A DNA stretch of 64,000 nt from assembly GCA_964019135.1 (NCBI GenBank), contig OZ025263.1:16283123-16347122 (forward strand). Direction: 5' to 3'. Positions 1,823 through 42,097 of the stretch are shown piece by piece. How positions within the stretch are numbered: position 1 is the stretch's first letter; each line of letters begins with the position of its first letter. The stretch comes from Arenicola marina (Eukaryota > Annelida > Polychaeta > Arenicolidae). Made by a program: the position numbers and the translations under genes. Below the pieces are notes generated by a model. That model had not been told where the DNA came from. It saw nothing but the letters and a program-made list of their open reading frames with translations, and did no database searches.

Positions 1823-4800
1823 GTGGGCCCGCAAGAAGAAGGCGGGCACCGAGGTGTGGTTCGGCCGTAACGCCGACGACCTGCCCAGTCGGAAGACAGC
1901 CGAACTTGACTCGGCAATCTTCGCCTCCTACTCGGGACCCGATCGAGGTCTGGCCATCGTGCCCGAGCTGAGCAATGACAACGCACAGGACGAGGACGGT
2001 AAGTTCTACATACATGGGCGCAATATGTCATGAACGTCTAAAGTTTAGGGATTATAAGTATGCGCATATATACATTTTAGATGTAATTTCCACAAGATCA
2101 TTAATTTTATGCTCTCTGGGCCATGACCCTGAAATATTGTTTTTACCTCCGTAGAAAAAGTCCGAATAACACACAAATATTTCTCGGAACTCTTTGCGCC
2201 AGTCATGCTTTTTCCAAGATGGCAGATATTTGCGTCATGGGCCATATAACTTATGGCGAAGGCGCATATACCTCCAGAATATTGCGTGATATCTTCAGAA
2301 CCCATTACATTAGTATTGGCAGATAATAATTTTGATGTGATAGCGTAAATAGCAATATTAGTAGTAAAATCGAGGCCACGCCTGTTCTTCACTTATGATC
2401 GTGCATTACTATGTTGGTTGGTTTAATGGCGACACTTTAACCTCTGCGTACTATCGCAATCAGTAAGAAGGGCTAATGGTAGAATGGGGCTATGCCCATG
2501 AAGTCTGTACCCCTCCACCTCTGATCTGACGCCGCGACTCACGCGTAAGGAAGGGAGTTACTTTTTTACAGTTTCCTAATATGAACCCATTGGGTCACTG
2601 GACTCAACATAAATACTGCTGTGGAAAGAGTTCAGGCGAATACGCCGAATTCGCCCGCCTCGCATTATTTCTGGTGGCCGGACGAACGCAGATCTGTCTT
2701 CAAAACTACATTGGAACGTTTGACAAAAAAAAGGCAAAAAAACACAAATAAATCCACGTCATTTCCGTGGTGATTTAGAACAAATTACATGACGCGTACA
2801 CAGTGACTGTGTTACGATAGGGCTTTTATAGTCCACCAAACTGCGTTCGGGCCAGTTGAAGAAGCCCTGATTTTGTCGCAGTTTTGCTGGTGTGACTATA
2901 AGCTCATTGCGCGGCGCCCTCCGCCATCACTCAGTCTCTGGGTGCCGGGGGAACGGCCGCCTCCACGCTCCCCGCACGGTTTTCGCTGCGCAAGTTTCGC
3001 TTTTACCGCTGCTCTCGGCCGGGGGCAAATTTTAAGATTCTTGAGAAACGGTCAGATCAGTTGTAATTTCTTGCATTATTATAATCTTCAAGAATAAAAC
3101 ATAAACATAACGAGCTCTGTGTATTTAATATAGCGAACAACATCTTGAACCCTTTCCAAAAAGTTATATTTCTGACTGAACTCTTTCTTTTCATCGCCTG
3201 ATACCGTGTGTTATTAGGCTTGGGCTGGCTCTAATTTGTAGAAATGCGCAGCGCAATTTTCCTATCAATTTGCGCAGCGCCGCCCTGCCGGCAGAGTGTG
3301 AAAATGCATTAAGGAAGTAGGCGACAACAGAGATATAATGGAGCCCTAGCGGAGTGAGTCGAAGGCAGAGAGTGGTCCGCCTCAGACGCCTGCCATAGAT
3401 TGTCTCCGCTCCCCTGGGCCTCGTTGCCATGCGCTATTTGTTTTCGATGTGTCTCCAAAAGGACATCACGGGTCAATGGCTTAGAAAATGAAATGCTATT
3501 TTTGGACACCCTCGTGGGGACCGTTGAACCTCATAGGGTTGGCATCGGTATTCGTCTCGTTGCTAAGGAGACCACCCGTCTTGGTCTTGTTGCTATGGAG
3601 ACCATCGTTCTTGTCACGTGGCGCAATACACCCAGCCTTCATCAGCTCGGCGAGGTCACTACCCATTGGTATGAATGATGGATATAGCATGGCCTTCGCA
3701 AGGCGACGGAAGTCATGAACATGGCTTGGGGGGATAAATCGACGTGCCTTCAATTATTCTCTCGACAGGTTTTAAGTGAAAGACGACCAAGAAACCCCCT
3801 GAGATCACGAGATGATTTGTGGGTGACTGTACCCCCGGCCTGGGGACGGGGTCTAGAATTAGTGACCTACGGCTACTCACAGCTGAAGGAGCTTCTATTC
3901 CCGCCATTATAACGGCCCATCAGTCGCTTATTATCCTCAGTACTTTGGTCTAATGCTGCTAACTGCTACGTTGGAATGTTCTGCCCATAGTGGTGTCATC
4001 TTAATGCCGCAACCCTTGCATATATCCTCGGCGACCAGACCGACTGTGGTCTGCAACGCCAATCTCTTCACATGACTCGCTGACTTGGTGTGTAAATGAG
4101 TTTGGCCTCCATATCTACGTTGGAAAAGTCAGGAGTTCATTTCAATTTCCCGTCTATCAAACAACAAGCCTACCGAAGACATTTTCGTTTCTTTATGACT
4201 TGGATGATCACCACTGTTCACACTTTTTGTAACTTCGCTTTTTTTTCCTCGTCTGCCGGAGCCGCTGGCCTTGATTTGTGTGACAGTGTGTCAAGTTTTG
4301 TTTTGTTATGTAACCCTTTATATAGGTGCCATGTTTCTGTGCTTTCCCTTTATCTGCCCTGGTTCTGTTCTTACCCTTTGTCTGCCCTGGTTCTGTTCTT
4401 ACCCTTTGTCTGCCCGGGTTTTGTCCTTGCCCTTTATCTGCCTTAGTTCTGTTCTTATCCTTTATCTGCCCTGGTTCTTTTGTTACCCTTTATCTGACCT
4501 GTTTTTTTTTTTACCCTTTATCTGCCCTGGTTCAGTTATTACCCTTTATCTGCACTGGTTCAGTTCTTACCCTTTATCTGCCCTGGTTTAGTTCTTACCC
4601 TTTATCTGCCCTGGTTCTTTGCTTACCCTTTATATGACCTGGTTCTGTTCTTACCCTTTATGTGCCCTGGTTTTGTGCTTTCCCTTTATCTGCCCTCGTT
4701 CTTTGCTTACCCTTTATGTGCCCTGGTTCTTTTCTTACCCTTTATCATCTCGCTTTGTCTTTACCCTTTATGGGTCCTGGCTCTACTCTTATCCTTTGTC

Positions 4801-7800
4801 TCTTATGGTTTTGTTCGTACAATTTAGCTGCCCTAGTTTTGTTGTAAGCGTGTATCTGCCCTGGATCTCTTCTTGCCTCTATCTGTGACAGTGTCCCAGT
4901 TCTCTCTCTCTTTGTCCGCTCCATCTGCTCCCAATATCTAGAGAAGCCATCTCTCACTGACAAATCCAGCCAACTTATTCAGCCAACAAATCATTTTTAT
5001 TAAGTCGGCCGTCACCATGGCACGCACTGACCTCGGTGTCACATTGTCCTTCCAGCCTCAACCAACGGCAACGGCCCCCAGACCAACGGCCTCTCCCGCT
5101 CCTCGCCAGGGCGGCGCCACCGGAATGGGGAAACGTCCGGCGGAGACATTGCCGGCGCTAAATCATGGAATCTCAAGAGTCGCAAAGCGTACGGCATCGC
5201 CATGTCGCTGTACGACCAGCACCCTATCAACGGCAAGATCTCAGGTCAGTAATGGACTCTTTTCGAAAGAGGACGTTTAGTTTTGTACGACCATCACCCC
5301 TCCAACAGCAAGATCTTAGGTCATTAATGAGTCATTTTAGAAGGAGGACGTTTATTTCTGTACTCGTGATCAGCACCCCATCAACGGCAATATCCCAGGT
5401 CAGTAATGGACTTTTTTCGAAGGAGGACGCTTATTTTTGTACGACCATCAACGGCAGATGTCTGGTGAGTAGTAAACTGTTTTCGAAGGAGGACGTGTAT
5501 TTCTGTACGACCATCACCAACAGCTAGATCATAGGCTAGTTCTGTGCACTTTATTTCTGTACGACTATAACATAAAAAATACTTTTGTACGACCAACACT
5601 TCCATCCAAGGTTACATGTCATGTGAGTAGTTATTTCCGTTTGAAAGAGGTTATACTTTTTTGTACGACTATGTATCGATTTAAACCATAATACTACAGT
5701 AATATTGGGCGCTTTGTAGAATGAATCATATCACTTTGGTGTACTGTATGCAGCATTTAGAGTACAAGACACATAGTTACGACAAGAAGAATAATATTAC
5801 GTCATAAATACTGTCGCAGAGTATTATTAATTGGGCCACTATTTCTGCCGATACAATATGTAAAGAGCGGAGAGCTACGCTGGGAGATGACTCCGCCGTC
5901 GCCATAGCAGCCATTAACACTACCTCATACCCGAGATTAATGCTCGTTGCGCCATACCGACCCACGAGTCACCCAAGGAGTCAGTACTTTGAGAACGTCG
6001 GGCAATACATCAATGTTACGCGTCTGTGTCCTTTTTTGGGAGCGAGTTCGTTTTCATTTTTTTCTCTCAAAGCTGGCCAAGAGCGCAATTCTTATTCCGT
6101 TCGAGAGAAAAAAGTAGTGCGCGCGGCGCGGCGTGATTCACGCTCGGTGAAGTGTCCCACTTTGGTGGGTTATGTTTTTCCGCGGAGGAGCCGGCTACCA
6201 GTGGTTGTAAATAAATCGGCCAGCGCACCCAAGGGGCGAACGGACAAAAAAGTGACTTCCTTGGCGGGTATTGTTTCCATGGTTAGAGCCTGGTGCTTAA
6301 GGTTTTTACACTGTTGACGTTCCCAGCTGGGGATCAATCATATCTTCGAAAAAGGTCCGTCCCGCTGGCCTAGTCGGAGGACGTTCTGGGGGGTTATTTG
6401 GTTGAGGTTCGTGGGCCTGCTTGGGGAGATTCCTTCAAATGGAGGAGTGAAGCAGATCTAGATCTAGTAATTGTTAATCTTTTTCTTGGCGGGTGGGTGG
6501 GAGGGCGGTGGGGGGAGTCGCTTAGGTCACACAATAAGTTCGTTCGTATCTCTTTTACTCCGGATGTGCGTACAGTTATCGTTGTCGTAATTTAATTCAA
6601 TCTGGGCAATAAACGAGAATAGAGGTTCCTTGGGATCGTGTCTTCCCTCTGGCGGACTCGGGGTCTGTCGTGTTATTAGGTCAGTGATGGCTCACATACT
6701 ATTTTCCTCTCTAGCCGTTCATGATGAAAACTAAAAACTAGTTATCAAAGGAGTTGGCGATGACATGCCCTGTTCCTCCACCAGTTTTTGTTCAACGCCA
6801 GCGATGCGCTTGATGTCACCCACAGCTGTCAACACTGTCATCTGCCTATATTGATTTACGCACCGGACCCCTCGCCTTGACTGAAAACAAACGCGCCCCG
6901 GGTGTGTGGGGAGAGAGAGAGGGGGGTCGGGCAATGAGTGCTTTTAAACGTGGATCACTTACGTGCCTTCCGCAAATATCTATAGAAATATCTAAAGAGA
7001 GGTTATCTGCATCGCCAGCATTGTTCGGGTGACTTGAGAGGATATATGCGAGAAATGGTGTCAGTTTTGTTCCATAGATTTCTGCGTAGATATGAATGAT
7101 CTCTCTTCTTGACGATGTTATGACAAGACAAAACACGCCGGACATCCATTGGGACACTTACCCTCAGTTTGGCCTTTACCGTTGCCTCGCAGTTACACCC
7201 CATTGTTGATGACTGTGTGGCTAACTGGCTATTGCTTCCGGTGGACGTAGCATGGCTATGGCCTCGCAGTTACACCCCATTGTTGATGACTCTTTGTGGC
7301 TAACTGGCTATTGCTTCCGGTGGACGTAGAATGGCTGTTGCCTCACAGTGCACCCCAGTGTGGATGACCGTGTGTGGCTAACTGGCTATTGCTTCCGGTG
7401 GACGTAGAATGGCTGTTGCCTCACAGTGCACCCCGCCGTGTGTGGCTAACTGGCTATTGCTTCCTGTGGACGTAGCGTCGCTGTTGCCTCACAGTGCACC
7501 CCAGTGTGGATGGCCGTGTGTGGCTAACTGGCTATTGCTTCCTGTGGACGTAGCGTCGCTGTTGCCTCACAGTGCACCCCAGTGTGGATGGCCGTGTGTG
7601 GCTAACTGGCTATTGCTTCCTGTGGACGTAGCGTCGCTGTTGCCTCACAGTGCACCCCAGTGTGGGCGACCCTGTGTGGTTGACTGCCTATTGCTTCCAA
7701 CGTCCCTGTTGCCTCACAGTGAGTCTCTGGGTGAGCGACTGCGTCTGACTATCATAGCACTCATCCAGTCGCTTCCAGCTTTGGTGTCCGACATGGCGCA

Positions 7801-13800: not shown

Positions 13801-16800
13801 TTACTGTGTGTGATCTGCATGGGTGGTTGTAATTACCAAGTTTATGTATGTATCCTATCGCGGTCATAGTAACATTACGTGAATGCCTCCTTATACAACA
13901 CACCATCGTCCGTGTTTAATAAACAATAGATCCTATGTATGAACCTTATAGTTTTTACATTTTGCTTGCTACTTTTTTCTGCAGCTACAATTAGAACGCA
14001 GCGTAGCTATTCAAGAATGCTTATATATAGAAGTTTTTCTTGTATTTGATGGTTAGTGTAATATGCTATGCTTATTTCGCTACCTAAGTCTATTATTAAC
14101 CGCACACACTTTTTATTTCAGTAAGGTAAGGTAACCAGTGTTTGATTTACGGCCTAGCCAGTCACATGTTTGTTCGATGTGTGCATTTTCCACGGTTTAA
14201 TAAGCAGCAAAGGCACATGGCACGAGTTGCTGTTAACGTCTTTAGATAGTGAGCCACTGTTATACACAATGTCTTGTGGAGTAATTAATAATCCTTTGTT
14301 TTCCCCCTTATCTCATCTAGGAAGTCATTCCTTATGGAATTGATTTGGACGACATCATGTTTATAGATGAAATTGACGAGGTGCCTGAAGTTAGTGAAGT
14401 TCACCAGTAATTTTCACAGAGCCTTATCTCAGGGTAAATAGCACCGTAATCAGGCGCGCTAGCTACTAGTGGCGCCATCTGTTGAATGTTGCTAGAACTA
14501 CTACTTAGATCTACCGTTTTTGCGTATAGTATATATTTTCCGCCTGTTGGTTTGGGGGCAGTGTGGAGCTGAGGGGAGCGAGGGGTGATCTTTAACCCTC
14601 CACCCTCCTCCTCCCCAATCCCGTTTCTGCGGTTACTGATTGTACAAAAACGTAGAATAACCTTTCCCTTGGCTTACTATTGGATTCTGTATCCATCGTG
14701 TACTTGGCAGTGTTCGTTTGTACGGCCTGTATTATGATTTGTATGGGATTTGTGTGCAATTTCGATGATGGCGTTGTTTGTATTTATTGAAGTTATTGAA
14801 TTTATGATTATTGCTTGTTTCCAACGATAGAATCGCAGTGATCACGTCTTTTATCACATTATCAGACCTTAGTACTCATTAGAATATTGAGGGTAATCTT
14901 AATTCTTCCGAAAGAGAAATCCAATGAAACAGTGTGTTCGCTTATTTTATACGTTTTCGGGTTTATTTCATATTATATTAGTATGCACAACCTTTAACTC
15001 TGTCCTTATATTTCCCGCCTAGAAGGTACAGTCGATTGTGAAAGGGTATCAGACGTGATCGCTGTGTGAGTAGCAGATGACGAGACTTGAGATCCTTTGT
15101 CATTTTCCTTTCCTTCATGCCTATGACGCCAGGTCTAAGCTGTTTTATCTTTCAATATGGAAGTGCACTATTCCCTTCCCTGTACGTGGCTTTTTCACAC
15201 GCAAAATTCACTTTCACGTCATATGATGTTTTGTGCTATGCCCACCCCCCTCCCCACGGCTTAAAATTGTCAGTTAAATCTTGATGTATGCACCAGTTAA
15301 TACATTGTCACCCTTTTATATGTTCTAATTATTATATAATATAAAATGATTATAGCTTGTATATATCATAACAATCATGTAGATATAGTATTAATATAGT
15401 GTAATGATTATGGAAGCAGTTCCTTCGACAGGTAATGTATTATCTGGTGTTTGTATTAACTGGTGCACCAGACTTGTGGATCGTCATCTGCTGTGTACGC
15501 GTTTAATATTACCCTCCCTGTGCCTGGTACCTGTGTTTTTCTTGGACCTCAATGAAGACATCGAGCGAAAGGCTTTGATACAACTTGCTATAGCGACTGT
15601 TACATAATAAGGAACGCCAGCGTTGCCACGTGGCGCGTGATCGCACGATGTCTCTTCTGATTGATTGCTCCTTCAACATCCAGCATTCTGTAGACCACGT
15701 GATCAATGGATTGTGAACGGCGCATTTTGTTCTTTCTTTTTATTTCTTGTGAAGCCTCTTCTTGAATATTATGCGGGGGAAGAAATCTTTGTTTGAGAGA
15801 GAAAACAAGGTACACGGCAGTGTATTTCAAACCCGTCCCTCCCTTACCATCCCTTCGATGCATGAGCTTTCACCCCGTTATCGCATGGCCGAATGCCGAT
15901 TTGATGCCTGTTTCTGTAGCATTAACACATCCTTGAAGTAAGGTCTACGACACGCTATTTGCAATCAGTTCAGTTTCCCATGTCCTGATATTAAGTATAC
16001 CCTTCAGCTTCCTCTCGACCTTGTGGGGATTTCACTCGCCAGTTGTATGCGCCCGTTTCCATTCGCCATGAGAGGGGCCGGCTCGGTAGCTCAGTGAGTT
16101 CGATTCGCCTTGAGCGCTCTGGCCACCTGAGAGCCTAACGGCACGTGGATCGGTAGCTCGAGCTCCACTGTGGCCATGTCTGTGTGGTCGCAGGATAAGG
16201 ATCCCATGTCCTTCTTTGCAAAAAGTAGGGGGTTCCCTCCGGGGACATAGCTTCCCTCTTCCATTGACGCGATATGACCAAAAGCGGTTAAAGCGTCCTG
16301 AATATACAACCAACCATTCGCGATAAGAGATGAAAGATCTCGAATGATACCTGACGTAAGCTTATTGCTGTCAGTATCTCTGTACCTGTATCATAACTAG
16401 CGGTATCAACTCGGCGATGATGTGTCGGACACCAACATGGTATACAGTCGTATTATTTCATCAAGCTTTTGGTTGTTACCTTTATCCCCTTATTTAGCCG
16501 AGAGGTGGCTGCATTGAACGTTCGCCATAACGCCAGAATCACAACAATCACGAACTGTATATGCCTTGGCCTCCTTTCATGCTGCTGACCCGCCGACCCC
16601 TGGATATTTATGATCCCGAATGTATCTTCCCGTTTCTATGGCTCGCAGGTCCCTCGCAAACACTTCGCTCATCATATGTTTCACTGACTTACGGGTCCCT
16701 TCCAAACACTTCGCTCATCACCGGTTTCATTGACTTGCGGGTCCATCGCAAACACTTCGCTCATCACCGGTTTCATTGGATTGCGGGTCCCTCCCAAACA

Positions 16801-18692
16801 CTTTGCTCATCACCGGTTTCATTGGCTTGCGCGCCCATCCCAAACACTTCGCTCGTAACAGGCTTCATTGACTTGCGGGCCCCTCCCAAACACTTCGCTC
16901 GTAACAGGCTTCATTGGCTTGCGGGCCCCTCCCAAACACTTCGCTCGTCACAGGCTTCATTGACTTGCGGGCCCCTCCCAAACACTTCGCTCGTCACTGG
17001 TTTCATTGACTTGCGGGCCCCTCCCAAACACTTCGCTCGTAACAGACTTCATTGACTTGCGGGCCCCTCCTAAACACTTCGCTCGTCACTGGTTTCATTG
17101 GCTTGCGCGCCCATCCCAAACACTTCGCTCGTAACAGGCTTCATTGACTTACGGGCCCCTCCCAAACACTTCGCTCGTAACAGGCTTCATTGACTTGCGG
17201 GTCCATCGCAAACACTTCGCTCATCACCGGTTTCATTGGCTTGCGCGCCCATCCCAAACACTTCGCTCGTAACAGGCTTCATTGATTTGCGGGCCCCTCC
17301 TAAACACTTCACTCGGCACAGACTTCATTCTAATCAGATGTTCCATCTTTTGTCCTTGCCACAAACAAGATCCGAGTTGAGTCTTCACCACTAGTTGATG
17401 TTTGCTGTCACTTAGATTGTATATCCGGGGACATCTCTCCACATTTTCTCAGTGTATTGTTGTTGTGTCGCTTTTGCATTGTCTCATCTCTGTGGCTGGG
17501 TCCAAGGTATGGCATCCTCAATCCTTCCACATTCGACGAACCATATTGGAGCTTCAGAAATTATTTAATTATTCGCCCGCGATTGATGTAACAGGCTTCA
17601 TGTAATATTAAGTCGCATATTGCATTGTAATAAATGTACTATCTGATCCGCTTCTAACAACAGTGCATTTTGTGACTTTACCCCCCCCCCCCCCCACCGC
17701 CTCACTTATACAAACACTACTTCGAAATGAACTTTTTGACCTTAATCGACTATCTACTTTTAATTGACTTTCCCCTCTTTTGGTCTTCGCATGGAACTTA
17801 AATATTTATAGATGCAGTCCAAAGATGTTCATCTCGACTCAAGTATTAACTGTATGCCTTGGAATATAATGTAATAGATGACACCCTCCTTTATCATTAC
17901 CCCCAACGCATGGGAACGTGGAGAGTGAACAATAAACTTGACCTACACCGCCATTGCCGTCTATTAGTCTCATTGCCCATTGTAACAACCCTATCCTTTC
18001 TGTTTTCTATGGATGATACTACCCTGCTCCACCCCCCCCCCCCTTCCCGTCTAGACCAACCCTGTATGATCCTGTTTTATCCCCGACTCTTACCTTAAGC
18101 ATATTATCCTAGTGCTATTCCACACCAGTCTTATCAGACCACAGACCACACACCATACTCTGACCCAATATTGGTCATTCAACCCTTTGTAAGATTAGAT
18201 GCATTTTATGTACAGTGATTTTATTTAGGGATGGAATATTACATATTTCTTAAATTGGTGTCGTTTTTGTTATAGTCACGTATGATAGAACAGTTTCATT
18301 GTTCAATTATGTATCTTAATATAAATGTAGCTTGTTAATTATCATCTTTTTGCTCTCTTTAGGCCGCTTATCATGTACAGATCTTTCGAGCGTATTTGAA
18401 AAACCTTTATTAAAATATTAATTTATTAATTTTTTTTTTTTATTAATTTTATTAAATTATTGAAAACTTCCTCCTTATCATTTCTTCTTCTTCTGTAACA
18501 TAATTACAACCAATGCGTCTCTCTACCTGTGATATTTCTCCTTCAAAGGGTCCTAATTAATTTCCATGTCATTTCTTGTTTTTTCAGAAAAACGCTTTCG
18601 AGAAGAGCTTGGACACAGACGATGACCTCACTGGCCCTTCTGACAGTAACCATAGCAACCACCGTCTAAGTTATTTCAACCAGGCTACTTAG
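1823..18692 (+). CDS. PP2C-like domain protein (CG9801 type), 5'-partial, 7 exons
   Basis: Exons: 1823-1998, 5056-5244, 8660-8838, 9476-10315, 10720-10779, 14321-14380, 18588-18692. All junction phases agree and give 535 visible residues. The fold is that of a Ser/Thr phosphatase 2C, most like the insect CG9801 family. Motifs: [14 protein letters not shown] (D144-G145 of the visible protein, in place of the usual DGHGG), [15 protein letters not shown] (230-232 GDS), and [10 protein letters not shown] (D297) with metal-binding-type aspartates. Near the C-terminus LDHASIIAY (D434-H435) replaces the usual D-N. Loss of the DGHGG and DN signatures suggests weak or absent catalysis, so a pseudophosphatase or scaffold is possible. 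Exon 2 holds a Gly/Ser/Arg-rich linker before [17 protein letters not shown]. The exon 3 donor (CAC|GTCTGT) is weak. The last three exons are small, acidic and all phase 0-0, which allows skipping. The gene runs tail to tail with MLX. Family assignment rests on memory of motifs, not on a search. Confidence 0.85.
3555..3605 (+). promoter_or_regulatory. Two RFX X-box-like motifs
   Basis: GTTGCTAAGGAGAC and GTTGCTATGGAGAC lie about 35 bp apart in the same orientation. Both resemble the X-box bound by RFX factors (GTNRCC-N-RGYAAC type). The function is inferred only from the match; they lie inside intron 1. Confidence 0.3.
4330..4870 (+). repeat. 28-bp minisatellite, about 18-20 copies
   Basis: Tandem units built on CCCTTTATCTGCCCTGG plus TTCTGTTCTTA, pyrimidine-rich on the + strand and decaying towards the right end. 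Because 28 is not a multiple of 3, each frame cycles through all three readings of the unit and all stay open, producing overlapping hydrophobic Cys/Phe/Leu-rich open frames that are artefacts of the repeat. Confidence 0.9.
5208..5670 (+). repeat. Tandem decaying copies of the exon-2 end and its splice donor
   Basis: The last ~37 bases of exon 2 (from TGTACGACCAGCACCC) plus ~38 bases of intron (GTCAGTAATGG then CGAAAGAGGACGTTTA) recur starting near 5283, 5358, 5437, 5505, 5586 and 5660, increasingly degraded. The true donor is at 5245. Copies of it are at 5320 (TAGGTCATT), 5399 (an identical CAGGTCAGTAATGG) and 5465 (GGTGAGTAG). Use of the 5399 donor would read Gly-Gln then stop right after the normal exon end. 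Confidence 0.8.
5671..8659 (+). other. Rest of intron 2 of the PP2C-like gene
   Basis: Contains the 78-bp minisatellite at 7180-7730 and otherwise only short open frames without recognisable domains. It ends in a good acceptor (CTGCCACAG) at 8659. Confidence 0.6.
7180..7730 (+). repeat. 78-bp minisatellite, about 7 copies
   Basis: Units contain TGTGGCTAACTGGCTATTGC then TTCCTGTGGACGTAGC and GTTGCCTCACAGTGCACCCC. The central copies are nearly identical (26 codons each, so a 26-residue repeat appears in translation); the flanking ones diverge and vary in length. It lies wholly inside an intron, so the open frame across it is not taken as a gene. Confidence 0.9.
8839..9475 (+). other. Intron 3 of the PP2C-like gene
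   Basis: AT-rich 637-bp intron with a weak GTCTGT donor and the acceptor CCGATGCAG. The phase 0 boundaries on both sides join [16 protein letters not shown] smoothly, as in the family. Nothing else is seen in it. Confidence 0.7.
10316..10393 (+). CDS. Alternative C-terminus of the PP2C-like protein by read-through of the exon 4 donor
   Basis: If the donor CAG|GTGCGC at 10316 is not used, the frame continues for 25 codons to TAG at 10391-10393 and ends in FSFETSV. The last three residues (T-S-V) fit a class I PDZ-domain ligand. Splicing instead joins codon 461 to the 60-nt exon at 10720 without phase change. Which form is made cannot be told from sequence. Confidence 0.5.
   Translation: MRNSRFHSPPLSATGTGRFSFETSV
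10780..14320 (+). other. Intron 5 of the PP2C-like gene
   Basis: Begins GTAAGT and ends TCTCATCTAG. AT-rich; it contains one SINE (13093-13340). No exon is supported in the rest. Confidence 0.65.
13093..13340 (+). mobile_element. tRNA-derived SINE, copy 1
   Basis: The 5' part looks like a tRNA with an A box (GATAGCTCAGTGGATTAG) and a B box (GGTTGTTCGAGCGCC). A ~150-bp body follows, containing GGATAAAGATCCCATGTCC, and the end is an ACAACCAACCAACC tail. The same element occurs at 16076-16313 (+) and 60385-60650 (-). Pol III transcription and LINE-driven mobility are inferred from the tRNA head and short tandem tail. Confidence 0.85.
14321..14410 (+). CDS. Alternative terminal exon form of the PP2C-like gene
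   Basis: The exon starts after TCTCATCTAG and reads [20 protein letters not shown]. If the phase 0 donor GAG|GTGCCT at 14381 is used, it splices to the final exon at 18588. If not, it continues VPEVSEVHQ and stops at 14408-14410. Both forms have an acidic tail. Confidence 0.55.
   Translation, partial: EVIPYGIDLDDIMFIDEIDEVPEVSEVHQ
14411..16075 (+). other. Intron 6 or 3' UTR stretch, no gene seen
   Basis: Directly after the alternative stop at 14410, so it may be 3' UTR of the short form. Otherwise it is intron; no domain or repeat array is recognised. Confidence 0.5.
16076..16313 (+). mobile_element. tRNA-derived SINE, copy 2
   Basis: Same family as the copy at 13.1 kb. Head GGCCGGCTCGGTAGCTCAGT, shared segment GAGCCTAACGGCACGTGGAT, the body with GGATAAGGATCCCATGTCC, and a short ACAACCAACC tail. 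Confidence 0.85.
16640..17330 (+). repeat. 46-bp minisatellite, about 15 copies
   Basis: Units contain CTTGCGGGCCCCTCC then CAAACACTTCGCTCGTAACA and GGCTTCATTGA. There are two main variants (GGGCCCCTCCC and GCGCCCATCCC) interspersed along the array. It lies in the last intron of the PP2C-like gene. Confidence 0.9.
17331..18587 (+). other. 3' part of the last PP2C-like intron
   Basis: No exon is seen. It holds two C homopolymers (about 15 at 17681 and 12 at 18032) and ends with a pyrimidine-rich TTTTTTCAG acceptor. Confidence 0.6.
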
Positions 18693-24767: not shown

Positions 24768-27700
24768 CTAATGGAGTTGGTTATTTAATTGCCCCAACAC
24801 ACGCAGCGTCAACTCGCGTAACGTCTGAAAATGAATGGAAGGAAGCCGATAAGTCACCTGGTTGGAAGGTTAAGTCAGCAAGTGTCAAACACTTACTATA
24901 CAATAACATATATCAAAGACTGGTTGCAATGATTGAAAGCTAATATCGAGTAGAAAAGTCATTATGTCAAACGATACAGCGCGTAGGGATAAAATTCCTA
25001 ATTGAAAATTTACGTGAGGCTTGCACTGTATTTACCTGAGGCTTGCACTGTATTTAGCTGAGGCTTGCACTGTATTTACGTGAGGCTTGCAGTGTATTTA
25101 CCTGAACCTTGCAGTGTATTTACCTGAGGCTTGCTGTGTAATTACCTGAGGCTTGCACTGTATTTACCTGAGGCTTGCACTGTATTTGCCTATGGCTTGC
25201 AGTGTATTTACCTGAGGCTTGCAGTGTATTTACCTGAGGCTTGCACTGTATTTACCTGAGGCTTGCACTGTATTTGCCTATGGCTTGCAGTGTATTTACC
25301 TGAGGCTTGCTGTGTATTTACCTGAGGCTTGCTGTCTATTTACCTGAGGCTTGCTGTGTATTTACCTGAGGCTGGCAGTGTATTTACCTGAGGCTGGCAG
25401 TGTATTTACCTGAGGCTTGCAGTGTATTTAACTGAGGCTGGCAGTGTATTTACCTGAGGCTTGCAGTGTATTTACCTGAGTCTTGCAGTGTATTTACCTG
25501 AGGCTTGATGATTGCAGTGTATTTACCTGAGGCTTGCAGTGTATTTAGCTGAGGCTTGCACTGTATTTACGTGAGGCTTGCAGTGTATTTACCTGAACCT
25601 TGCAGTGTATTTACCTGAGGCTTGCTGTGTAATTACCTGAGGCTTGCACTGTATTTACCTGAGGCTTGCACTGTATTTGCCTATGGCTTGCAGTGTATTT
25701 ACCTGAGGCTTGCAGTGTATTTACCTGAGGCTTGCACTGTATTTACCTGAGGCTTGCACTGTATTTGCCTATGGCTTGCAGTGTATTTACCTGAGGCTTG
25801 CTGTGTATTTACCTGAGGCTTGCTGTCTATTTACCTGAGGCTTGCTGTGTATTTACCTGAGGCTGGCAGTGTATTTACCTGAGGCTGGCAGTGTATTTAC
25901 CTGAGGATTGCAGTGTATTTAACTGAGGCTGGCAGTGTATTTACCTGAGGCTTGCAGTGTATTTACCTGAGTCTTGCAGTGTATTTACCTGAGGCTTGAT
26001 GATTGCAGTGTATTTACCTGAGGCTTGCAGTGTATTTACCTCAGGCTTGCTGTGTATTTACCTCAGGCTTGCAGTGTATTTACATCAGGCTTGCAGTGTA
26101 TTTGCCTGAGGCTTGCAGTGTATTTACCTGATGATTGCACTGCAATTACCTAAGGCATGAGGCGTGCACTCTCATTACCTGAGTCGTGCACTCTCATTAC
26201 CTGAGGCTTGAAGTGTATTTACCTGATGCTTGCGGTGTATTCATCTGAGGCGTGATGATTGCAGTGTATTTACCTCAGGCTTGCAGTGTATTTACCTGAG
26301 GCTTGCGGTGTATTTACCTGAGGCTTGCGGTGTATTTACCTGAGGCTTGCGGTGTATTCACCTGAGGCGTGAGGCGTGCATTATCATTACCTGAGGCTTG
26401 CAGTACTCCTCCAGCCAGCTGAAGACGCAGCCAGACAGCTCCGCGAAGTTCGCCACTGATATGGAGGCGTTAAACGACTGGAACAAGTTGTCCATCACTT
26501 GCTGAAACTGTAACGCCAAAGGCACCAGTTAAACAAGCCTGTGATTGACCCCTCACAAAAAATAGGGATAAAGTAGGGCTACTTGTGCCAGAAAAGTAGG
26601 GGAAAATATAGGGAAAGGCGGGGACTGCAGGAAAAAAAAGTAGGGCATTCTGATGAAACTTAGCTATGCCTTTTCTGCTTATTTACTTATAGAGATGACT
26701 TTTACCATTACCACAGGATGAATCACTTATCACTTTGAGACCAGGCCAGATAACATGCATTCCAGTATCACAGAGTAGGTATTACGCAGAATAATACCTA
26801 CTCTATAATATCTACTCTGTGCCAGTACCAAATGTCATAGGTCATCGGGCATCAATCAGACCATTGTAGCGTGATCCTGATGTACCTGGTTTCCTTCATT
26901 CAATGGGGGCCTTGCATGCCATTTGGTTATATCTTTCCGAAATCTTTCCGAAAAAGTTGTGAACAAGTAGGGACAAAATGAAAACGTGGTGAAAGAAAGT
27001 AGGAAAGTAGAGTGAACCTAAAAAAAAAAGCAGTAACAAAATATGAAAGTAGGGATCAATCGAAGGCCTGTAATATAACACTCATTATAACATTTCACGG
27101 GATTTTCGGAACATTTGAAGTTCATATGATCTACATTCATGAAGTTGAGTTAGACGAACATGACACAATGCACCGGGCCAATGAAACAGACCCTAGATTC
27201 TCCACTCACGACAAGTGGTATATAAGCCACCATAGTCATACGCCAGTACCGAACTCACGACAGACCTCACATCTGAAAATAGACTACCGGTAACTTCCCA
27301 CTTAGCCATTAGGGGCGGCCCCAACTTACCACTTGGAACTTGACCTCGTCGGACACTTGGTTCTGTCCGTGTTGTGGGGTATTCTGATGGGCCTTCACGA
27401 TGTGCTCGTAGTTCCTGGAGGGACCACAACACGCCAGTCACACTCCATTTTCACACTCACTCATTATTCGTCAAATAATATCCCACACAAAGACTGGGCC
27501 ACCAAATCAGTACCTGTACTGTTCGCGTTAAGAAATCGTATTTACCTGAGGCGTCATGATTGGCAACTCCCAATTCACACTCAAGTCATTATTCGTCAAA
27601 TATATAATATCCCACACAAAAGTTGGGTCACAAAGTCAGTACCGATAATGTTCGCGTTAAGAAATCGACAGATATTCACTCATTGTTCGTCAAAAGTTAT

Positions 27701-30700
27701 TCCTAAAAAAATGGTAGGGTCACAAAGTTGTTATTGCTAGCTTCGTGAAATCGAAAGAGATTTTTATATTTTGATTTAAAAATTGAAAAACAAATTTTGC
27801 ACCATTCGCTTTAAGCTATAAAAATATAACTTAAAAATATGCAATTTTGATATTACGAGTTCAAACTAGTTTAATTTTTTACTTATTTAAAATATTTTCA
27901 TTCACCATTTGGGCTAACGAAAATAGTACCGTTTATTTTCATGATTAAAATATGTATTGTGCTATACTTACGCTTTCATAATCTTGAGGGCCATCACTTC
28001 CTTTCGCAAGCTGTCTAGGTCTTCTTCAGATTTCTTCTTCTGCTGCTGGAGATACTGTATGTAGTCGATAGCTGTCAAAGGCAAAGAACAAACACTGTAA
28101 CGACATTTAAGTACTATATTCCACCAACGGACTTTCAAAAATTGCCCATATGCCTTAGATATATATCCACAGTTGTTCTCGACCTAACAATTGGCATGCC
28201 GTTTTGAGGAGGATATGTGTTTGCCTAGGTGATTTGCATAGTCTTTCCGCCAAAGCAATGGCCGATTGTTCTACAAGAAAGGTGCTTGTGAATCATAATT
28301 TTAGTGCACGAAAGTCGTTCTTTGTCTGATTACTGTTACTACGCATTATACAGACACGTCCTCACATTTCTGTAGAATTGTAGCCTTGCTCATCTTCTGC
28401 GAAGCCAAACTCTCTGGCTGTTGGCACATGGGAACGATGGTCTGGAGCTCGTCATAACCTTTCTGTAGCACACCAATAAAACAGTATCGTCAGCGACAGG
28501 GAACAGCTACACCTTATATTGCACACACCAGTGACCAGTAACAGCTACACCTTATATTGTATACACCAGTGACCAGTAACAGCTACACCTTATATTGCAC
28601 ACACCAGTGACCAGTAACAGCTACACCTTATATGGTATACACCAGTGACCAGTAACAGCTATACCTTATATTGCATACACCAGTAACCAGTAACAGCTAC
28701 ACCTTATATTGCACACACCAGTGACCAGTAACAGCTACACCTTATATCGTATAAACCAGTGACCAGTAACAGCTACACGTTATATGGTATAAACCAGTGA
28801 CCAGTAACAGCTACACGTTATATGGTATAAACCAGTGACCAGTAACAGCTACACGTCATATGGTATAAACCAGTGACCAGTAACAGCTACACGTTATATG
28901 GTATAAACCAGTGACCAGTAACAGCTACACGTTATATTGTATAAACCAGTGACCAGTAACAGCTACACGTCCTATGGTATACACCAGTGACCAGTAACAG
29001 CTACACCGTATATGGTATAAACCAGTGACCAGTAACAGCTACACGTTATATCGTATAAACCAGTGACCAGTAACAGCTACACGTTATATGGTATACACCA
29101 GTGACCAGTAACAGCTACACGTTATATGGTATACACCAGTGACCAGTAACAGCTACACGTTATATCGTATACACCAGTGACCAGTAACAGCTACACGTTA
29201 TATCGTATACACCAGTGACCAGTAACAGCTACACGTTATATGGTATACACCAGTGACCAGTAACAGCTACAAGTTATATCGTATACACCAGTGACCAGTA
29301 ACAGCTCCACGTTATATCGTATACACCAGTGACCAGTAACAGCTACACGTTATATCGTATAAACCAGTGACCAGTCCCAGCTACACGTTATATTGTATAC
29401 ACCAGTGACCAGTAACAGCTACACGTTATATCGTATACACCAGTGACCGGTAACAGCTACACGTTATATCGTATACACCAGTGACCAGTAACAGCTACAC
29501 GTTATATTGTATACACCAGTGACCGGTAACAGCTACACGTTATATTGTATACACCAGTGACCAGTAACAGCTACACGTTATATCGTATAAACCAGTGACC
29601 AGTCCCAGCTACACGTTATATCGTATACACCATTGACCGGTAACAGCTACACGTTATATTGTATACACCAGTGACCAGTAACAGCTACACGTTATATCGT
29701 ATACACCAGTGACCAGTAACAGCTACACGTTATATTGTATACACCAGTGACTAGTAACAGCTACACGTTATATTGTATACACCAGTGACCGGTAACAGCT
29801 ACACGTTATATGGTATACACCAGTGACAGGGAACAACCATAGTTATGTCCACACCAGTGACAAAGCGTAGAAGTTATATTGTCCATATCAAGGACAGATT
29901 AAGACAACATATTAAGAAGGCCTGGACCCTTTGGTGAGGGGAGCAATGTGGAAAATCCCCTCTCCACTGGACCAAAACACGATGTCAAGTACAAAACAGG
30001 GGGAAGGGGGGGGGGGCACATCTTAAAAGGCGTACAGTTACCCTTGAAAACAGCATCCTCGCTCAAAACAAGGTGGTGGGGTTGTGGGGATCCAGACAAA
30101 ACGCTCTTATCTTCCCCTGGATCCGCACATGGGTCGGTTAAGATGGAGTTGAAGAATGTCATGGCGAGTACATGTATTATATCAAGCCATGGTTCCTATC
30201 TCTTGTTAAGGAGAAGTGACTTGACACCCCAGGCCATGGCGAGTACATGTGTCATATTAAGCCATGGTGGCTCTGCAGGTCATGGCGAGTACATATTGGA
30301 CTGACCTTGATGGCGTCCCTCCGCTTCTGTTCGGCGTGAGTGTGCGCCTCACGACGCCGGTCTTTGTACGTGGGCGTCGGCTTCGTGCTGTCTGAGTCCT
30401 CGTCATCTGGAGAACACAGCAGCAACATTACACGGACGCCTTTTTCAGAGAAACAGACGGGGGGGGGGGCTTAGTCGGCCAAAATCGCCCACCATTTACA
30501 TGGTAACTTTAATCGACTAAGCCCCGTAGTCGGCTAAACTGCGTTCGTGAAATCCGCCACTGATTGAGTTTGTGGTATCCCTAATATACCACAATGGCTG
30601 TAAACGACCATTTCGTATCAACTATTTGTGGCTATTATCGATTCGTACTCTGTGCGTGTTTTTGCCGTCATTCTTCGTCCTAAGGGGAAGCGAACGTTAC

Positions 30701-34219: not shown

Positions 34220-36450
34220 GGAGTAGTGGGGGCTGGGTGAGTAGTGTGATGGGGGGTGGCTGGGTGAGTAGTGTGGTGGGGGGTGGCTGGGTGAGTAGTG
34301 TGGTGGGGGGTGACAGGGTGAGTAGTGTGTGGGGGGGGGGGGTGACAGGGGGTGACAGGGTGGGTAGTGTGGTGAGGGGTGGCTGGGTGAGTAGTGTGGT
34401 GAGGGGTGGCTGGGTGAGTAGTGTGGTGGGGGTGGCTGGGTGCGTAGTGTGGTGGGGGGTGGCTGGCTGAGTAGTGTGGTGGGGGGTGGCTGGGTGAGTA
34501 GTGTGGTGAGGGGTGGCTAGGTGAGTAGTGTGGTGGGGGGTGGCTGGGTGAGTAGTGTGGTGGGGGGTGGCTGGGTGAGTAGCGTGGTGGGGGGTGACAG
34601 GGTAAGTAGTGTGGTGAGCGGTGGCTGGGTGAGTAGTGTGGTGGGGGGTGGCTAGGTGAGTAGTGTGGTGGGGGGTGGCTGGGTGAGTAGTGTAGTGACG
34701 GGTGGCTGGGTGAGTAGTGTGGTGATGGGTGGCTGGGTAAGTAGTGTGGTGAGGGGTGACAGGGTAAGTAGTGTGGCGAGCGGTGACAGGGTGAGTAGTG
34801 TGGTGAGGGTTGGCTGGGTGAGTAGTGTGGTGGGGGGTGGCTGGGTGAGTAGTGTGGTGAGCGGTGACAGGGTGAGTAGTGTGGAGAGGGGTGGCTGGGT
34901 GAGTAGTGTAGTGGGGGGTGACAGGGTGAGTAGTGTGTGGGGGGGGGGGGGGTGACAGGGGGTGACAGGGTGAGTAGTGTGGTGGGGGGTTGGCTGGGTG
35001 AGTGGTGTGGTGAGGGGTGACAGGGTGAGTAGTGTGGTGAGTGGTGGCTGGGTGAGTAGTGTGGTGGGGGGTGACAGGGTGGGTAGTGTGGTGAGGGGTG
35101 GCTGGGTGAGTAGTGTGGTGGGGGGTGACAGGGTGGGTAGTGTGGTGATGGATGACCAGGTGAGTAGTGTGGTTAGGGGTGACCAGGGGAGTAGTGTGTT
35201 GAGGGGTGGCGAGGGGGGTAGTGTGGTGAGGGGTAGCTGCGTAAGTAATGTGGTGAGGGGTAGCTGGGTAAGTAGTGTGGTGAGAGGTGGTTGGGTAAGT
35301 AGTGTGGTGGGGAGTGGGTGGGTGAATAGTGGGTGAGGGGTGACAGGGTAAGTAGTGTGGTGAGGGGTGACAGGGTGAGTATATGTGGTGAGGGTTGGCT
35401 GGGTGAGTAGTGTGGTGGGGGGTGGCTGGGTGATTAGTGTGGTGGGGGGTGGCTGGGTGATTTGTGTGGTGGGGGGTGGCTGGGTGAGTAGTGTGGTGGG
35501 GGTTGACAGGCTGAGTAGTGTGGTGAGGGGTGGCTGGGTGAGTAGTGTGGTGGGGAGTGGCTGGGTGAGTAGTGTGGTGAGCGGTGGCCAGGGGGGTAGT
35601 GTGGTGAGGGGTGGCCAGGGGGGTAGTGTGGTGAGGGGTAGCTGGGTAAGTAGTGTGGTGAGGGGTGGTTGGGTAAGTTGTGTGGTGGGGGGTGGCTGGG
35701 TGAGTAGTGTGGTGGGGGGTGACAGGGTGAGTAGTGTGGTGGGGGTGGGTGGGTGAGTAGTGTGGTGGGGGGTGGCTGGGTGAGTAGTGTGGTGGGGGGT
35801 GGCTGGGTGAGTAGTGTGGTGAGGGGTGGCTAGGTGAGTAGTGTGGTGGGGGGTGGCTGGGTGAGTAGTGTGGTGGGGGGTGGCTGGGTGAGTAGCGTGG
35901 TGGGGGGTGACAGGGTAAGTAGTGTGGTGAGCGGTGGCTGGGTGAGTAGTGTGGTGGGGGGTGGCTAGGTGAGTAGTGTGGTGGGGGGTGGCTGGGTGAG
36001 TAGTGTGGTGACGGGTGGCTGGGTGAGTAGTGTGGTGATGGGTGGCTGGGTAAGTAGTGTGGTGAGGGGTGACAGGGTAAGTAGTGTGGTGAGCGGTGAC
36101 AGGGTGAGTCGTGTGGTGAGGGTTGGCTGGGTGAGTAGTGTGGTGGGGGGTGGCTGGGTGAGTAGTGTGGTGAGCGGTGACAGGGTGAGTTGTGTGGTGA
36201 GGGGTGGCTGGGTGAGTAGTGTAGTGGGGGGTGACAGGGTGAGTAGTGTGTGGGGGGGGGGGGGGTGACAGGGGGTGACAGGGTGGGTAGTGTGGTGAGG
36301 GGTGGCTGGGTGAGTAGTGTGGTGAGGGGTGACAGGGTAAGTAGTGTGGTGAGCGGTGACAGGGTGAGTAGTGTGGTGAGGGTTGGCTGGGTGAGTAGTG
36401 TGGTGAGGGGTGGCCAGGTGGGTAGTGTGGTGAGAGGTGAGGGTTGGTAC
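34220..36450. repeat. G-rich 27-bp minisatellite, over 80 copies
   Basis: The + strand unit is GTGAGTAGTGTGGTG followed by GGGGGTGGCTGG, with variants (GACAGG, GAGGGG, AAGTAG). A large part is duplicated at higher order with a period of about 1313 bp (marker GACGGGTGG at 34697 and 36010). G-tracts of 10-13 occur near 34327, 34929 and 36251. Runs of GG/GGG separated by short loops fit G-quadruplex formation. The 27-bp period keeps long frames open on both strands (a 767-codon His/Pro/Thr-rich one on the - strand), which I treat as a by-product. Confidence 0.95.
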
Positions 36451-39808: not shown

Positions 39809-42097
39809 TAACGTATGGTGCCCTAATTTCGTCGGGTGTCCAAATTTCGTAACCAAAAAATAACAGCTACCTCCTTCTCTGACAAGCACATCTCAGTCAA
39901 CATATGTTTTCGTACATTTTTTAATCTCTTTACAACATTTCCGTGATAAAAACAGCACGAAATTACGAAATATAAGGCACTAAACGGAGTTCTGTAAGTT
40001 GGTACCCTGATTTGGGACGTCTAAAAGTTCGTCTCGGTAAGAGAGAGCATCACTTGCACAAGCCATTTTTGGTATATCTAAGCGATAATGGGCCGCCTTT
40101 TCATGCACGTGCAAGAGAAACCATTCCTCACGATATTACGATACAAAGATGCTTAATTTTCAGTGTTTTCAGGGGCTTCAAAGTTGGTGACGATATTGGG
40201 GCACCTAAAAAGACCCTTTTGACGAAATAAAGTCATCTTCTGCTTCAAGTGCCCCTAATTTCGTCCAGGGGGGGGGGGAGGGTCTTATTGTCGTTACTCA
40301 GGGGGGGGGGGGTACCGGAAAGGTGATAGCGGTGCAGCTGGAGACAAGGCGCAGAAATGGGAGGTACCGGAAAGGTGACAGCGGTGAAGTTAGAATACAG
40401 GGCGCAGGAAGAGGAGGTACCGGAAAGGTGACAGCGGTGAAGTTTGAAGACTTGGTGCTGGAAGGGGAGGTACCGAAAAGGTGAGAGCGGTGTAGCTGGA
40501 GACAAGGCGCAGGAATGGGAGGTACCGGAAAGTTGACAGCGGTGAAGTTAGAATGGAAGGCGCAGGAAGAGGAGGTAACGGAAAGGGGACAGCGGTGTAG
40601 TTTGAAGACTGTGTGCAGGAAGGGGAGGTACCTGAAAGGTGACAGCGGTGAAGCTAGAATGGAGGGCGCAGGAAGAGGAGGTACCGGAAAGGTGACAGCG
40701 GTGTAGTTTGAAGACTGTGTGCAGGAAGGGGAGGTACCGAAAAGGTGACGGAAGTGTAGCTGGAGACAAGGCGCGAGAATGGGAGGTACTAGAAAGGTAG
40801 ACTAAAGGTGACAGCGATGTAATTCGAAGACAGAGTGCATGAAGGGGATGTACCGGAAATGTGACAGCGGTGTAGTTAAAGACAAGACGCAGAAAGAGAA
40901 GTTACCTAAACCGTGATAGCGGTGAAGTTAGAATGGAGGGCGCAGGAAGGGGAGGTACCGGAAAGGTGAAAGCAGTGTAGTTAAAAGACTGTACACGAAA
41001 GGGGATGTACCGGAGAGGGGACAGCGGTGTAGTTAACGACACGGCGCAGGAAGGAGAGGTACGAGGAAGGGTGACAGCAGTGTAACTAGAAGTCGGGGTG
41101 CCAGAAGGGGAGGTACCGGAAAGGTAAAAGCAGTGTAGATGGTTATAGGACATAAGAAGTGGAGGGGCCAAAGATGGTAACAGCATTGTGATTGGAAGAT
41201 AGGAGGGGAGGGACGGAAAAGCGATGCAATGTGGGGTATCGCCCCCCCCCCCCAGGGGTTATCCCTTGCAACTTGCTACTCCTAAAAAATGTTGATTTCA
41301 TTCTTTTCCTTATATTTGCGAATTTCCACCTGTCAAGGTATTACTTCTTCTATTACTTCTAAGTGGCCCTGCCATGCCTCATTTAGAAATGTTACACAAG
41401 GTTGTGTGGGCGATAACCGGGATGGTTGAAGTCAAAATTAAAACTGTGGATTTCATTATACCAAGTTCTGACGTTTTCATCACTATGCATGACATTTTGG
41501 GTTCTAACAGACGTAGTTTCTCACTAGAGCCCGCGCTATTGATCAAATGGAAGACAAAAAGAGTGTGTAGTCAGGCATCGTAGTTGTATAGTATGCGCTT
41601 TATCGTGGTTTCTCGTGGTGCAGAACAAGTAAGGGTTCTTTATTAGAATTCCAGACAGCGTTGGCCATATGTTACAGAGATCTGATGTCGAAATAGTTAT
41701 CTGTGAAACATTTTAGGTCTAAATACTTGCAGTTTTCGTTTAGTTTGCGGTTTAAGTTTAACAATCAACATTTTAAGTTTAATCAACATGGTTTTTAGAT
41801 CCTTACCTTTCGGGTATGACGATAATGGGTCTCCCTGACGATATTTGGACACCCGTTGTGACGATATTAAGAACCCGGGTTCCTAATATCGTCAGTTTTA
41901 CACCGCTCCCATAAAATCTCTCATAATTAATCACGCAACAGAAATAATTTATTTTTCTTTTCACCAACGGATAGCGGACTTAATCTTGTAAAAGGAACAA
42001 TTAAACGGTTTCACTCATTCGTTCTAATTTAGAAGAACGGGGCGTTTTTAGAAGCAAACACATTTGGAATGACGAAATTAGGACACCATACGTTAGT
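39809..42097. mobile_element. 2.3-kb non-autonomous DNA transposon with TIRs and TA target sites
   Basis: The left end is TA then ACGTATGGTGCCCTAATTTC (GTC); the right end reads in reverse complement TA then ACGTATGGTGTCCTAATTTC (GTC). That is about 23 matching bases with one mismatch, flanked by TA on each side. Related subterminal CCTAATTTCGTC words recur inside (near 40252 and 41883). No transposase frame is recognised, so it looks non-autonomous, perhaps of Tc1/mariner-like type given the TA. A 53-bp minisatellite (40300-41200) and a palindrome at 41860-41893 lie inside it. Confidence 0.65.
40300..41200. repeat. About 53-bp minisatellite, roughly 17 copies, inside the DNA transposon
   Basis: Units contain GGTACCGGAAAGGTGACAGC then GGTGAAGTTAGAATGGA and GGCGCAGGAAG. 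Two variants alternate for part of the array (GAAGTTAGAATGGAGGGCGC and GTAGTTTGAAGACTGTGTGC), and the units diverge to the right. Confidence 0.85.

Follow-up and report, generated by a model that had tools for sequence, protein, structure and literature searches.

The way in which a single 5' splice site is selected from several near-identical candidates is a long-standing question, and the MLX gene of the polychaete Arenicola marina poses it dozens of times over within a single intron. An earlier note on the 64-kb stretch of DNA analysed here (the window) held that the end of an MLX exon, together with its donor, opens a 22-bp minisatellite of about 60 units, and that this array most likely grew out of the exon-intron boundary itself. 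Where did such an array come from, does it belong to MLX in particular, and what would its donors do?

Structure and origin of the MLX array

The exons of MLX were placed by tblastn searches with the MLX proteins of a chiton, a mussel and a spider, which gives approximate coordinates, and the junction bases were read by eye (Table 1). Translation of the penultimate coding exon, called exon 7 in the earlier note, yields FQQVMDNLFQSFNASISVANFAELSGCVFSWLEEYCKPQ, followed by GTAATGATAATGCACG. The tblastn match to the last exon is weak taken alone (QTLRELTLRVLGQLNNQLH at 24827-24771, E 0.29), and the Q codon of this match is the terminal CAG of the intron; among PDB sequences the MLX peptide had no match. 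The last intron measures 1.57 kb, about nine tenths of which is occupied by the 22-bp array.

Table 1. Positions of the MLX and PP2C-like features in the window
Feature	Position	Strand	Basis
Further MLX exons	~30406-30306, ~28462-28366, ~28071-27972	-	tblastn (chiton, mussel, spider MLX)
Stray copy (25 bases) of one array variant, intron upstream of the MLX penultimate exon	27538..27562	-	23/25 identical to array
MLX exon NYEHIVKAHQNTPQHGQNQVSDEVKFQV, next upstream of the penultimate exon	27330..27414	-	tblastn and sequence
MLX penultimate coding exon	26391..26507	-	tblastn (same MLX queries); translation in frame, ending ...SWLEEYCKPQ
Donor of the penultimate exon, GTAATG	26390-26385	-	junction reads CKPQ|GTAATG
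22-bp minisatellite TGCAAGCCTCAG|GTAAATACAC, 62 units including the exon's own	25008..26402	-	TRF; wrap-around alignment
Two successive blocks of 22 units each, 489/490 bases identical	25049..26029	-	unit list; identity computed
MLX last coding exon TLRELTLRVLGQLNNQLH and stop, beyond the array	24768..24824	-	coordinates read from sequence
PP2C-like CG9801 exon, end part	5148..5244	+	tblastn, sequence
75-bp array of ~4 copies: last 36 exon bases of PP2C-like CG9801, donor CAG|GTCAGT, intron start	5209..5518	+	TRF, sequence

TRF reports the MLX array at 25008-26368 (period 22, 60.6 copies). Wrap-around alignment, which runs from 26402 to 25008, resolves 62 units, the first of them being the exon's own and containing the last 12 coding bases, TGCAAGCCTCAG, and thereby bears out the array as it had been described. 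The dozens of donor copies said to lie behind the true donor are likewise present, with 38 occurrences of CAGGTAAAT in the intron and variants in addition. The array shares two features with donor minisatellites of the IFI6 type, namely a unit that holds a 5' splice site and a start that coincides with the 3' end of a coding exon. Several irregular units lie near the exon in the wrap-around alignment, and some have GTAATGA, as in the real intron start, and not GTAAAT. The pair of nearly identical 22-unit blocks is either a recent duplication of higher order or an effect of the assembly, and hints at recent change. One array unit also seems to have been carried across the exon into the upstream intron. 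It matches the array at 23/25 bases, whereas the best of 290 random 100-bp windows reached 18/25; this stray copy is flanked by two stretches of about 100 bases that resemble each other (27461-27690 of the window).

The motif EEYCKPQ at the exon end is invariant in nine aligned MLX proteins, that of Arenicola marina and those of eight relatives (molluscs, a spider and beetles among them). In 18 of 77 retrieved relatives, some of the 18 being near-duplicates, CKPQ continues into V, as expected from genomic read-through of a GTN donor, and by eye no repeats were seen in the short read-through tails of these 18 proteins. Since the exon end and its junction are kept in relatives, the MLX exon and its donor are older than the array, and the CKPQ|V junction places the intron before the array as well.

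Dispersal of the unit through the genome was the finding that the earlier note had named as speaking against an exon origin, in that the array might be a satellite or mobile repeat matching the exon end by chance. No such dispersal was found. All 14 matches to the exact 18-mer of the unit in the 867-Mb assembly lie within the MLX array; allowing up to three mismatches to the 22-mer gives 62 matches, 54 of them in the array and eight at three other places, against two places by chance for the reversed pattern. The unit does not recur at many unlinked loci, and a second array derived from MLX was not found anywhere in the 867 Mb. The one other array similar to the unit, on contig C2 (L051), has a 44-bp unit that shares TGCAAGCCTCAGGTAA, and counts in favour of dispersal; against this, the 3 kb fetched there hold no MLX exon sequence beyond the shared stretch, and the similar single-copy sequence ACCTTCAGGTAAGGACATGGCAGC adjoins the array. 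We rejected it as a relative of the MLX array, the shared stretch being only about 16-20 bases long. A chance match to a dispersed repeat is further opposed by the conservation of the exon end, which predates the array, and we consider it highly improbable. Because the exon is conserved, the unit is private to the locus and some exon-near units resemble the real intron start, the array is, as judged from its sequence, derived from the exon-intron boundary, in agreement with the earlier note.

Arrays at other exon ends

The window itself contains two exon-end arrays, that of MLX and a shorter one at an exon of a PP2C-like gene (Table 1); a search of the genome for PF13672 gave no match. Other long minisatellites in the window lie at 28502-29827 (38-bp unit), 34231-36439 (27), 16651-17329 (46), 40306-41138 (53), 4327-4885 (28) and 7181-7698 (78), and no exon junction was recognised in any of these six. 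The 38-bp array stops about 40 bases from an MLX acceptor.

Tandem repeats are abundant elsewhere on the same chromosome, from which 20 stretches of 10 kb were taken, 19 at 2-Mb steps and one next to the window. Arrays whose units measure at least 7 bases make up 69,385 of these 200,000 bases, and several stretches are mostly satellite. With the window included, 8 of 84 units match a donor at six of seven positions, versus 0 of 84 reversed units. By eye, five arrays start where an open frame runs into a donor (three in L009, two in L025); one of the five exons matches EGF_CA (E 4.5e-10), and the other four are without a Pfam match. Two further arrays, both within the eight donor-matching units, were not taken as exon-end cases: that in L012 (29-bp unit, AACCCAG|GTAA) extends past the fetched stretch, with its start outside, and the donor-like array in L028 has no evident exon alongside. 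The 29-bp array, at L029/L012 (C18:6996001-7001050), covers at least 5 kb in 174 copies, with CCCAG|GTAA in each unit. A single exon at L009:4242-5330 has a 26-bp array ending near its acceptor and a 15-bp array of the donor junction on its other side.

Exons picked by homology only allow the frequency of such arrays to be read blind to the arrays themselves. The sample comprised 40 of the 77 matches to the myosin head, which come from some 16 gene loci, and a junction 20-mer was scored as repeated where it recurred at least twice, at 16 or more of 20 bases, within 680 bp. The donor 20-mer was repeated downstream in six of the 40 exons (L038, L059, L060, L062, L064 and L073; L038 and L060 are the same locus, so that two of the six cases fall in one gene, and the repeated donor of L064 is a GC donor). 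The acceptor 20-mer was repeated upstream in one exon (L072), and a mid-exon 20-mer in none of the 40. Positions 200 bases into the introns were repeated in 8 of 40 cases downstream and 10 of 40 upstream. Arrays at L033, L034, L050 and L056, which start 4 to 21 bases inside the intron, were excluded from the junction repeats. Among RhoGEF exons (9 of 27 hits) the donor was repeated in L076 and L078 and probably in L074, that is in two, probably three, of nine, and the acceptor in none of the seven that could be scored.

Pooled over both samples, with L074 left out, the donor was repeated in 8 of 48 exons versus 1 of 47 for the acceptor (two-sided p 0.031; p 0.108 for myosin alone), an asymmetry observed in modest numbers. 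In about one in six of the exons tested, the exon end and its donor recur downstream in tandem, and the array can no longer be regarded, as it was in the earlier note, as a property specific to MLX. The sole acceptor-junction array of the 40 exons (L072; C1:64.33 Mb, myosin gene) has an 85-bp unit in which the start of the exon is contained, and at L063, in the same gene, a 53-bp array reaches the acceptor itself.

Donor copies and explanations for the arrays

According to the earlier note, the true MLX donor is if anything poorer than its copies. A matrix built from 33 donors of the Arenicola marina genome scores them at 7.55 and 7.72, respectively, a near tie with both low in the range, which leaves this ranking unsupported; a general donor matrix did favour the copies (median 5.4 vs 3.6 for the true donor). 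Read-through past the true donor gives VMIMHASRLR*, stopping after 10 residues and before the last exon, as had been reported. The same reading follows from 10 of 11 internal donors translated, and the first of them (+29) shifts the frame. With a stop or frameshift at all 11, the final TLRELTLRVLGQLNNQLH would be lost if these decoy donors were used, and MLX would be truncated.

Donor copies are mostly intact across the exon-end arrays: GT or GC is retained in 168 of 176 scored copies from 13 arrays, the copies having been located by junction similarity. Unit length is a multiple of three in 4 of 10 arrays checked, and in 10 of 10 the read-through frame runs into a stop after no more than 46 codons, so the donor copies show little sign of serving as coding sequence. 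In 12 arrays the donor cores have a mean percentile of 0.28, versus 0.45 for GGT windows (70 windows in 44 other arrays), and are somewhat better conserved; the MLX array, at 0.43, is unremarkable. The better retention is a hint of use, which the selection of cases for junction similarity could explain.

The account that we regard as probable is one of tolerance, in which tandem duplication is rampant in the genome of this polychaete, the first donor is used, and the copies are neutral. A short tandem duplication spanning the 3' end of the MLX penultimate exon and its 5' splice site would have started the minisatellite, which may then have grown, partly by duplication of the 22-unit block. The original exon and donor remain upstream of all copies, and the array could be tolerated for this reason: the spliceosome would take the first donor, and the copies would be removed with the intron, leaving the mRNA unchanged. 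The MLX array would then be one instance of a genome-wide process in which arrays readily enter the 3' ends of exons, where the original exon and donor stay first, and rarely their 5' ends, where a duplicated exon start and acceptor would place copies ahead of the true acceptor, to be encountered before it. Within the first 90 bases of exons, array ends are indeed few (1 vs 5.5 expected, p 0.026), and array starts in their last 90 bases are not (6 vs 3.1 expected). Both the use of the first donor and the neutrality of the arrays are what we infer, and pure neutrality has a counterpoint in the donor cores, which are better conserved than it predicts, in cases selected for junction similarity.

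If internal donors were used at some rate, array length could instead tune MLX dose, as the earlier note had suggested of donor choice, with MLX truncated by 18 residues or its mRNA lost to nonsense-mediated decay. The copies score as well as the true donor, and the uniform consequence of using them (a stop after VMIMHASRLR, or the frameshift at +29) would suit such a decoy; human IFI6, whose downstream repeat donors are reported as used (PMC4526556), provides a precedent and counts against a model in which only the first donor serves. The tuning of MLX dose nevertheless draws no support here, as similar arrays at many unrelated exons speak against a dial specific to MLX and, by eye, no array shows in the short stretches that relatives read past the donor; we think such regulation unlikely. 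Titration of U1 by the array, also raised in the earlier note, has no support here. It is also unlikely that donor arrays in general are a useful feature of this genome, in which selection would maintain intact U1-binding sites in series at the start of introns. Roles in securing exon definition, in suppressing premature transcript ends or in offering alternative donors in a graded way, the length of an array acting as a heritable dial, are correspondingly doubtful, the only hints being the retention of donor cores and the dense array starts just inside introns.

Those dense starts could also mean that 5' splice sites actively seed tandem duplications, through AG|GT microhomology, transcription-linked breaks or R-loops, and in this respect tolerance alone may not suffice. 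Array starts number four in the first 25 intron bases, against 0.77 expected from the intron rate (p 0.008), and six in the last 90 exon bases, against 3.1 (p 0.10), and the excess of donor-matching units over reversed ones points the same way. Coverage by arrays is, however, lower at the donor (6 of 40) than in the intron interior (9 to 14 of 40), so that no special attraction to donors is required. Over the 25 intron bases that precede acceptors, moreover, array ends are also somewhat dense (4 vs 1.46 expected, p 0.061), so the cause could be proximity to exons instead of the donor. Active seeding is rather unlikely in our estimate.

Implications and known systems

If about one in six exon ends is trailed by copies of its own donor, from several up to dozens, the genome of Arenicola marina would provide a natural test of splice-site choice over many genes, namely whether position alone (the first donor made being the first used) decides. 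The arrays could also serve to test why donors tolerate tandem duplication and acceptors rarely do, and they carry a warning for annotation, as exon ends may be repeated in such genomes. In the assembly, a mitochondrial COX1 fragment (L092, code 5) shares 94% identity with Pilargis wolfi and with a Namalycastis entry, which points to an errant polychaete of Phyllodocida and away from the mollusc origin that the MLX matches had at first suggested. Two further observations concern the kinase matches in the assembly. Fifteen of them, on the small contigs C232, C330, C443, C465, C497, C504, C609, C652 and C684, have TAG or TAA codons in frame but lack TGA, as would sequences from an organism that translates TAA and TAG as an amino acid, such as a contaminating or associated ciliate. 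Of the 122 kinase matches listed, most cluster on contig C3, in frames of about 280-320 amino acids that are mostly stop-free, and are a large expanded family.

A literature search, covering mostly papers available without subscription, found no report of exon-end and donor arrays occurring genome-wide. The closest known case is a human one, the minisatellite of IFI6 (6-16), which has a short repeat unit. It lies at an exon end, where several repeat units offer donor sites, and downstream units are reported to be used in making three mRNAs (PMC4526556). The MLX minisatellite, too, lies at an exon end and offers its units as candidate donors; in contrast to IFI6, described there as one gene with downstream units in use, it comprises about 60 units and has counterparts at many genes.

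Tandem duplication of an AGGT-bearing segment is also a described route to intron gain (Rogers 1989; ATP2A1; tandem AGGT duplicates of 24 bp in fission yeast; outlined in PMC4974935). At MLX the duplicated segment likewise bears AG|GT; whereas intron gain as outlined there places a new intron within an exon, no new intron was created at MLX, where the duplication occurred at the existing donor of an older intron. Among annelids, the earthworm metallothionein genes are comparable in having large intronic minisatellites and duplicated exon pieces, the exon-4 duplications there being absent from the final transcript; the passages concerned do not describe these repeats as arrays of an exon end with its donor, which is what the MLX array is (PMC12783039). 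Set beside these systems, the new element is the genome-wide recurrence of arrays built from an exon end and its donor.
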